This document shows positions 49,876 to 52,323 of a stretch of 64,000 bases of DNA, piece after piece; positions within the stretch are counted from its first letter, which is position 1; each line of letters opens with the position of its first letter. The stretch is from contig NC_079213.1 of the NCBI RefSeq assembly GCF_029633865.1, forward strand, positions 94,315,995 to 94,379,994. Direction: 5' to 3'. The notes beneath the pieces are model-generated. The model saw nothing but the letters and a program-made list of their open reading frames with translations. It ran no database searches and was not told the origin of the DNA. Position numbers and translations under genes: made by a program. Source of the stretch: Lampris incognitus (lineage: Eukaryota > Chordata > Actinopteri > Lampriformes > Lampridae).

Positions 49876-52323
49876 TTAGTCTAGGAGCCAGGCGGGCCTC
49901 CGGACTGGCCGGCCCCGTCTGGTGGTGTACGGGAGATGGGACTCAGCGGCGTCGGCTTCGTCTCCTTCTGGGTCAGGGGCGTTGGACTGCCCGCCCGGAG
50001 CACAGGCTGCTGTCCCACGACGTTGGGTGATTGTCGACTCGCCTGAAGAGTAGCTGGCAGCAGTGTGTTGGAGCGGCTGGAACCGAGCCGGGGAGCCTGG
50101 TGTGCTGGGTCCTCCATCGTCGTTTGCGTGGAACAGGTCCTCCAGCCGGAGATCAAGGTCTTCATCGATCTCCTCCTGCTCTGTCACTCCTTCGTACTCC
50201 TCTGTTCTCTGCGCCCCCGGCTCCTCCATGTCAGCAGCGGGAGGACCTCCTTCAGGTGTTTCCTGCGGCCCTATGGCTGGTGCTGGAGCAGACAACAGAG
50301 CATGGCGCCTGTCATCTGTGCCCCAGATCTTCACCAGGCAGTCATCTGAGCCCGTGAAAATGCGTCGCCCGGTGCGGTCGAAGGTGACACAGTAGACAGA
50401 GGAGAGATGTCCCAGAATCCTCTTGTGCATCTTCATGTGCTGGTAGACAGCTGTAGGCAGTAGCTGGCGTAGACGGTAGGAGCCATTGAGCCGACGCCCA
50501 TTGCTCGTCTCCACGATATTGGGTGGACTCCCATAGATAATAGGAGGCTCTGGGGGTCGTCCACAGTGCAGAGCAGCCAGCGCTGAGCCCTTCCACACAA
50601 CATGCTTGCAGCTCTTGTTGGTACGCAGGAGGTTCTGCCTGCCGGCTCCCAGGATGCTGTGGAGACCAGGCACGCTGGCAGGAACCTCTTTCTCCAGCAG
50701 TGGACATACTCTAGAACACACTTGGAGTAGGTGGTCTGGGCTGATGTGCCTGTGCAACTTCACCTTGTTAATGTTGTTGATGCCACTGGCCAGGGTCTTG
50801 AGCTCGGGGGTGCTCATGCTGTCTCCTACCGGCGTTGGACTTGGAGAGCTATCGCGACGCCGCTCGTCTTCCCATGCTACTCGCCGGATTCTCCCTTTTC
50901 CTTCAACCTCTCGCCCCAGCGTCGCTTTAAAGTCATACTCGCGTGCCTCAACCTTCCTGATTGCTTCAGCTAGTGTTTTGGGTTCTGCCCCCAGGACTTC
51001 ATACGCGATGTTTTGGTTCTTCAGCCCGCGCAGAAAGGCTTCTGCAGCGTAGGCCTCCTGCAGTGTAACACCAACCTGCGGGTATGCCAGTGTGACAAGT
51101 CTCCTCACTTCCTCGCCAAACTCATAGAGGGTCATCTCTCTGGCCTGCTTAACCTCGCTGAGTTTACGGCGCGCAGTTCCCTCAGGCAGCTCTTTACCGT
51201 AGCGGCGGCGTAACTGGGTGATGAGCGCGTGGTAGTCATATTTTATCGGAGCCGGCTGCGCGATGACAAAAGACATGGCGTTGTCCCTCAGTGGGAGATA
51301 CAAGGCGTCCAAACAGGTCTCGTCGGTCCAGCCCCTCTTTCTCGCCATCCGTTCGAATGGTCCAGCGAAACTATCCCAGTCGCCCTTACCATCAAAAGTG
51401 GCGAGGAGCTTGATGTCATTTTCGTGTCCTCGGTCGGGACCTTGTGAGCTTCGGTTGCCGCTCTGACTTTGAAGGTCTCCTGTCTGGCTCTGTTGACCTC
51501 TAGAGGAACCTGCCTGCCCTCCAACGCTGTCATCCAGCAGGTTTCGGCCGCCGTTGCTGTCCAGGGACATTTGGCCACCCTGCATCCCGTCGGGGGGTGG
51601 TACTGCAGTCGCTCCATTTTTTCCACCATGACCGATCGGAGTGCTGGTAAGTGGTGCGGGCTCACTGGGTCCATTTCCTGTATAGCGCAGGGCTGCTGGG
51701 GCCGCTTTGCTGCTCGGCCTGGCTGGCGTCTCCTCGTTGCGCCGGTCGCTCAAGTTAGCCACTGCGGCCATAGCTGCTGGCAACAGGTGATCAGCGCCGT
51801 CTCGCTGTCTGGCCCCTGGGTTCTCCCGGGCCGGGGTGAACTGCGAGAGTAGGCTCATGTCTTGCACCGTTCTGCTAGTTCGTTCTCCGAGCACAGCCCC
51901 TGCCGACCCTACACCACTATCGCTTTGAGGGCTACTAGGAGAAACCCCTTGCTTCACTACTTGAGCGATGGGCGACAAACCGGGAGGCTCACCTTGGATA
52001 TCTGAACGATGACGGGCCCAATCGGTGCGCTGAATGGGAGGTGTGGGGGGACGAGATCGCTTAGCCACCGCTTCCGCTAGTCCATCGATACGCGCTGTGA
52101 GGGCCTCCATCTGCATCTCTATCTGGCGTTGCATCTTAACCTGGGTCTGGCGTTCCATGTTTTCCATCTGGCGTTGCATCTGAACCTGGGTCTGGTTCAT
52201 GGTTTCCATCTGCGCCAGGAGGAGCTTCATCCAGGCGTGCTCTCCGGGGTCTTCTGTCCCCACACCAGCACCATCCAGACTCAACTCAGACTGTTCTTTT
52301 ACATTTTCTTTGTCCTGTGACAT
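49876..52323 (-). CDS. Gag - PHIP/BRWD3 WD40 - Gypsy C-tail chimeric protein (815 aa)
   Basis: One open frame starts at ATG 52321-52323 ([13 protein letters not shown]). Residues about 1-521 are family A Gag: coiled coil, capsid-like region, but the zinc knuckle is lost because the host segment enters 5' of it. Residues about 522-671 are host derived: [76 protein letters not shown] and [10 protein letters not shown]. These are the conserved N-terminal region and first WD40 repeat of the PHIP/BRWD family (closest by eye to PHIP or BRWD3). Residues about 672-815 are the element's C-terminal tail ending RRPAWLLD. Both junctions keep frame. An RNA-packaging or particle role of such a fusion is conjecture. 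Confidence 0.93.
50311..50760 (-). other. Captured host cDNA segment (PHIP/BRWD3 family)
   Basis: Exactly 450 bp (150 codons) are absent from copy 1. The edges were set by comparison: shared sequence resumes at CACCTTGTTAATGTTG (50761 on) and GCGCCT (up to 50310). The coding sequence is continuous over a stretch that in vertebrate PHIP/BRWD genes should span several exons, so it came from a spliced mRNA. Confidence 0.9.

Follow-up and report, generated by a model that had tools for sequence, protein, structure and literature searches.

A multicopy Ty3/gypsy-type LTR element carrying a spliced phip cDNA between gag and the Pol tail in the fish Lampris incognitus

LTR-mediated retroposition in metazoans is reportedly the subject of a study by Tan et al. 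(2016) in Genome Research. Maize Bs1 is an element of low copy number, and the acute transforming retroviruses carry gag-onc fusions and are defective, requiring a helper. According to the accessible parts of the following sources, LTR-mediated retroposition occurs in zebrafish, chicken, mosquito and Drosophila (PMC5408686) and is also reviewed for metazoans elsewhere (PMC8232201), Bs1 is an LTR element that holds pieces of host genes (PMC13317346, PMC5408686), acute transforming retroviruses have undergone insertion of host oncogenes (PMC4997597), and zebrafish and frog have chimeric retrogenes, with LINE1 the likely main source in non-mammalian chordates (PMC3136929). Gene capture by LTR elements is already known in both plants and animals.

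The element described here lies in a window of 64,000 nucleotides, the whole stretch of Lampris incognitus DNA that was analyzed (NC_079213.1, 94,315,995 to 94,379,994), and it shares features with each of these systems. As in LTR-mediated retroposition, which those excerpts ascribe to template switching at short similarities, spliced host mRNA has been put between LTRs, and one hallmark of such capture is evident in the absence of two native introns from the captured piece; the described cases are gene retrocopies, whereas here the piece sits between gag and the Pol tail and is found in about 125 copies. Maize Bs1, as outlined in the same excerpts, likewise has host gene pieces forming a chimeric gene inside an LTR element, but it is a plant element with pieces of three genes rather than one. 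The acute transforming retroviruses also have host cDNA fused to gag in place of pol; unlike them, the present chimera is a germline-amplified retrotransposon in which the host piece varies neutrally. The chimeric retrogenes of zebrafish and frog again join retrocopied cDNA to other coding sequence, although the portion of that source available names LINE1, while the chimera belongs to an LTR element and is itself mobile. In the open literature searched, covered by titles, abstract openings and excerpts, no vertebrate LTR element with a host cDNA at such a copy number was found, which is a lead and not proof. What stands out is that a vertebrate host cDNA has been captured and amplified past the site count of its parental element. 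No relatives were found among phage records (phip part as query) or among viral contigs (phip part and gag as queries).

The chimeric open reading frame spans 815 open codons (window positions 49876-52323) in the order Gag, PHIP, Pol tail; it and all features of the element given below are on the minus strand, except for the unstranded target-site duplications. Read in the sense of the element, a 5' LTR of 489 bp (52550..53038) is adjoined by TGGTGTCAGAAGTGGGAT (52530..52547, read directly), which resembles a primer-binding site and probably functions as one. This is followed by gag with 521 codons (50761..52323), the gag/phip junction (50760..50761), exactly 450 bp (150 codons) of spliced phip cDNA (50311..50760), the junction of phip with the Pol tail (50310..50311), and the natural C-terminal tail of Pol (49876..50310, residues 672-815 plus stop), with the frame preserved across both joins. 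A purine-rich tract (GGAGGGGGGCAG in the sense orientation, 49657..49668, read directly), the putative polypurine tract, precedes a 3' LTR of 605 bp (49052..49656) with TGT...ACA ends in the element sense, and the duplicated target sequence ATAA bounds the element on the left (49048..49051, read directly) and right (53039..53042). The TGT...ACA ends and the short target duplication are LTR traits of the Ty3/gypsy group. The 3' LTR contains a 112-bp segment (49163-49274) that its 5' partner lacks; in most other copies read, the LTRs are about 600 bp on both sides.

A BLAST comparison of the region against the window showed that positions 50761-52347 are 99.5% identical to window positions 4153-5739, in a second element, copy 1, and that 50191-50310 are 100% identical to its window positions 1-120, while the 450 bp foreign piece had no other match in the window. 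Where the foreign piece stands, copy 1 has 4032 bp (121-4152). The preliminary description had proposed an 815-codon frame of gag, 450 bp and tail between LTRs and ATAA duplications, with about 4 kb of pol replaced, and both points are confirmed, the former by the open reading frame, BLAST and direct reading and the latter by the 4032 bp that are missing. The gag of the chimera matches the Pfam family Retrotrans_gag below its curated cut-off, and the zinc knuckle, protease, reverse transcriptase (RT), RNase H and integrase of copy 1 are all lacking. Since its own RT and integrase are missing, with the 450 bp in their place, the chimera is a non-autonomous derivative.

Copy 1 (124..5676, minus strand), which has no insert, carries a zinc knuckle, protease, RT, RNase H and integrase, the last four as Pfam matches at 601-689, 939-1098, 1162-1290 and 1489-1660, respectively. 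That order of domains defines the Ty3/gypsy group, and copy 1 is, as judged by sequence, a Ty3/gypsy LTR retrotransposon. The ATG that opens the chimeric frame is missing from it, its Pol ends early, just before the tail, and beyond the 120 bp that match the start of the chimera tail the remainder falls outside the window. In three relatives (P0129, P0130 and P0122) the end of the integrase runs in frame into '..RRRHALLQ..' or '..RRQRHALLQ..', and P0122 and P0130 finish with a similar TRRGRPV motif. Because these relatives share a similar tail, the in-frame 'C-tail' noted earlier stands as a feature, corrected to the normal C-terminus of Pol. Fish Ty3/gypsy elements (among P0129-P0138) have the same domains and a similar Pol tail as copy 1, and in this they differ from the chimera with its missing protease, RT, RNase H and integrase. 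In P0122 (960 aa) gag and protease are followed directly by the integrase end and the Pol tail, with no RT match, so that this relative reads as one whose pol has lost an internal stretch in frame and which carries no host insert.

The 150 aa encoded by the captured piece are 94-95% identical to the closest fish PHIP proteins and about 62-68% identical to BRWD1 and BRWD3 (5.8 billion proteins searched; 120 of 406 matches listed), and among the 120 matches listed there were no proteins with retroelement names. Of its residues, 147 of 150 are found in at least one of 12 aligned fish PHIP proteins. The native phip gene of the same genome was located on C18, where exon A (L052:1611-1759) is 100% identical to host bases 1-149 (50612..50760, minus strand) and exon B (L052:2055-2153) is 100% identical to host bases 149-247 (50514..50612, minus strand), base 50612 being common to both matches. 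Together the two exons match the captured piece at 247/247 bp, and the canonical GT-AG introns between and after them are missing from the element. This exon identity and the absent introns show that the captured piece is spliced phip cDNA, 247 of its 450 bp having been compared with the source. The remaining 203 bp (50311..50513, minus strand) had no match in the fetched 9.8 kb of native phip, which includes 5000 N. A third missing intron is suggested solely by two paralogue-like loci (L048 and L049), in which exons end at the corresponding places. No earlier phip exon was found within 4.6 kb upstream of exon A. Within native phip, L052:2925-7924 (C18) consists of exactly 5000 N, which presumably hide the exons for those 203 bp.

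These results bear out the earlier claim that the segment came from spliced host mRNA, and the proposed alignment of the 450 bp to exons of the same genome has thereby been made. BRWD3, which had been named as a possible source, is ruled out along with BRWD1 by the protein identities and by the perfect match to native phip exons, and a genomic exon with its intron is ruled out as the origin by the absence of the native introns from the element. The piece had also been said to encode the conserved N-terminal region and the first WD40 repeat; one WD40 repeat scores above the Pfam cut-off, but just the last third of BRWD1_N is matched, below its cut-off, and the piece is not a propeller.

The gag/phip junction 30-mer was found at 125 places genome-wide and the phip/tail junction 30-mer at 126, compared with 79 for the 30-mer of the uninterrupted parental gag, so that the chimeric junction outnumbers the parental site (up to 3 mismatches allowed; reversed-pattern controls gave 0). 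The preliminary description had implied a single fusion element and proposed a search for other copies with both junctions, and the genome in fact holds about 125. A genome search with the 450 bp gave 128 candidates, of which 40 were scored, all of them full length and 34 at the top score. Of the 125 gag/phip junction places, 100 were listed, and 60 of the approximately 125 copies were read, the window copy included and 20 of them in part: 39 further copies, picked by their phip match, were read at 4850 bp, and 20 short copies, drawn at random from the 63 remaining listed places and picked by the 5' join (which is theirs by selection), were read at 1335 bp. Both joins occur in 58 of the 59 further copies read, and are 450 bp apart in all 39 of the further long ones. 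The 3' join is present in 19 of the 20 short copies, at exactly 450 bp in 17 and one or two bases nearer in L060 and L061, and is missing from L065, which is rearranged. A target-site duplication of at least 4 bp was found in 34 of the 39 copies with both LTR ends, the window copy included, with 16 distinct duplications, and the LTR pairs differ by 0.45% on average and 1.0% at most, eight pairs having no substitutions. L010, in which gag is only partly within the fetched piece, was excluded from this LTR test as well as from the codon and site counts. By their flanks, the 40 long copies represent 39 distinct sites, the sole pair sharing both flanks being L013 and L014, which lie about 306 kb apart on C18 within a segmental duplication that carries the element. 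Since the joins are the same, the flanks and target-site duplications separate and the LTRs nearly identical, the copies are best read as the outcome of one capture followed by recent amplification by retrotransposition.

The frame is open in 27 of the 40 long copies, at 815 codons in 26 and 801 in one, and not fully open in 13, among which L010 is truncated. Distinct codon variants (nonsynonymous/synonymous) numbered 59/19 in the 3' part of gag, 25/7 in the phip part and 51/24 in the tail, and those of the whole gag 41/19 when shared between copies and 95/37 when single; in gag, phip part and tail alike they do not depart significantly from neutral proportions (p 0.38 or more). No purifying selection on the fused protein was found, the proportions being neutral in 59 of about 125 copies, so that nothing indicates that the fused protein is needed, and the open frame would follow from the recent origin of the copies. 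Counted per copy in the random 20, where shared alleles are weighed many times, the figures are 84/9 for gag, 22/15 for phip and 21/8 for the tail, a weighting that reflects a sublineage (B, see below) in gag and one synonymous phip allele present in 9 of the 20. Measured against the majority state at each site, with weights for the 100 listed copies, differences amount to 10.2 per kb in the 3' part of gag, which is high because sublineage B raises it, 2.9 in phip and 3.6 in the tail; the phip part thus varies less than the 3' part of gag and much like the tail. L065 and the copies with small alignment gaps (L054, L060, L061 and L063) were kept in these variation counts. A special conservation of the phip part, with 4 variable sites in 39 copies, was considered and rejected, as those copies had been ranked by phip identity and the random 20 vary to an ordinary extent, by a mean of 2.0 differences per 450 bp.

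Sublineage B is defined by shared differences in gag and comprises three long copies (L044-L046) and 7 of the random 20 (L055, L058, L060, L063, L064, L072 and L073). At 35 sites of the open reading frame the three long B copies agree with each other and differ from the majority, A, and 26 of these 35 differences, every one of them lying in gag, are coding-strand A>G changes; among the variants of A copies the count is 47 of 294 (p 3e-14). At 34 of 34 gag sites copy 1 carries the A state, which makes B the derived form. The A>G sites are enriched for A or T upstream (p 0.02), with no significant shift for G upstream (p 0.29) or downstream (p 0.15), a context that fits ADAR weakly. The accessible part of a zebrafish study reports an ADAR motif and raised editing in ovary and testis (PMC8096273). 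In the 3' LTR the differences of B are unbiased (3 A>G and 3 T>C of 9), and in the leader 3 of 5, a small number, are A>G; L010, L016, L023, L026, L036 and L041 were excluded from this LTR and leader comparison. A diagnostic 43-mer of B was found at 25 places genome-wide. In 23 of them its distance to a listed chimeric junction is exactly as expected, the other two are on C22 outside the listed junctions, and none is among the 79 listed parental gag sites. Recombination with another element lineage was rejected as the origin of B, since its marker is tied to chimeric junctions (23/25) and occurs at none of the listed parental sites. The pattern suggests that the founder of B was a chimeric RNA edited by ADAR, then reverse transcribed and amplified, and such an RNA-editing-like sublineage would be a marker of the chimeric RNA itself having passed through these steps. 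A literature search by title returned no report of an edited-RNA founder of this kind.

As a whole, a very probable explanation is a single capture event, in which 450 bp of spliced phip mRNA entered a Ty3/gypsy-type LTR retrotransposon when phip RNA and element RNA were joined non-homologously at about the time of reverse transcription, at the cost of 4.0 kb of pol. The product would be a non-autonomous element retaining LTRs, leader, gag and the 3' end, which would move in trans with the enzymes of full-length relatives and would have reached about 125 sites through the usual cycle of reverse transcription and integration, the fused protein being probably a by-product; that copy 1 keeps all enzyme domains counts in favor of this, its missing ATG and early end of Pol against. 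The joining step itself was probably a pair of template switches by RT, in line with the chance packaging of mRNA and template switching at short similarities outlined for LTR retrotransposons in the part of PMC5408686 available. The sequence of gag at the 5' join is AACAAG GTG, and that at the start of native exon A is ttccag/GTGAAG, so that GTG is common to both, while no shared bases are visible at the 3' join, where native phip is an N run and where the paralogue-like loci L048 and L049 place the join inside an exon. Template switching at capture is likely but short of proof, since a splice would account equally well for the 5' join. An element lying in phip upstream of exon A could have given rise to a hybrid RNA, spliced in the style of retroviral oncogenes from a donor-like site in gag (AACAAG/GTGCTC) to the acceptor of exon A (ttccag/GTGAAG) and then packaged, with one RT switch restoring the 3' end. 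This would account for the 5' join falling exactly at the start of exon A and for the GT that gag has there, yet beyond AAG/GTG the gag site is a weak match to the splice donor consensus, no piece of the element family was found over the 4.6 kb preceding exon A, and a template switch would leave the shared GTG too. Readthrough RNA is believed, in the excerpt of PMC4997597 available, to be the start of oncogene capture, and for the joining step alone a spliced hybrid is a possible, if rather unlikely, route.

Single capture and retrotransposition must also be weighed against accounts in which the copies, or the chimera, arose otherwise. Multiplication as DNA by segmental duplication does explain L013 and L014, with their identical flanks on both sides, but as a general account it is highly implausible, given that both flanks are shared by no further pair of the 40 long copies, that 34 of 39 have target-site duplications of at least 4 bp, and that the RNA-editing-like sublineage B occurs, where this can be checked, only with chimeric joins. 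An assembly chimera or artefact, which had been put forward as what might overturn the capture, is scarcely credible when the same junctions recur at 125-126 places and the flanks differ in the copies read, the one pair excepted. That the Gag-PHIP fusion is a selected protein, domesticated by the host or used by the element, appears very unlikely: the frame is kept at both joins, for which the chance would be about 1 in 9, and 27 of the 40 long copies are open, but openness is compatible with youth, a single WD40 repeat is present, and the proportions of nonsynonymous and synonymous variants are neutral in each part tested, the shared gag variants included. The significance initially attached to the kept frame is not borne out by this neutral variation or by the 13 copies that are not fully open, and the suggested measurement of selection on the host part gave the 25/7 already cited, compatible with neutrality.

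It is a doubtful but conceivable addition to single capture and retrotransposition that the phip piece itself aided the spread at the RNA or DNA level and not as protein. If so, silencing RNAs directed against the element might, for example, also strike host phip and restrain the host from silencing it, and this aid would explain the excess of chimeric junctions (125 places) over parental gag sites (79). Within one vertebrate genome the gene of origin, an element of the parental type and the amplified chimera are all present nearly unchanged, so the joining, the movement in trans and possible feedback upon phip are accessible to direct study. The window also contains further pairs of repeats that are 94-99% alike, namely 29524-30162 and 43865-44538, 30157-30362 and 34394-34599, and 23055-23234 and 27272-27451.
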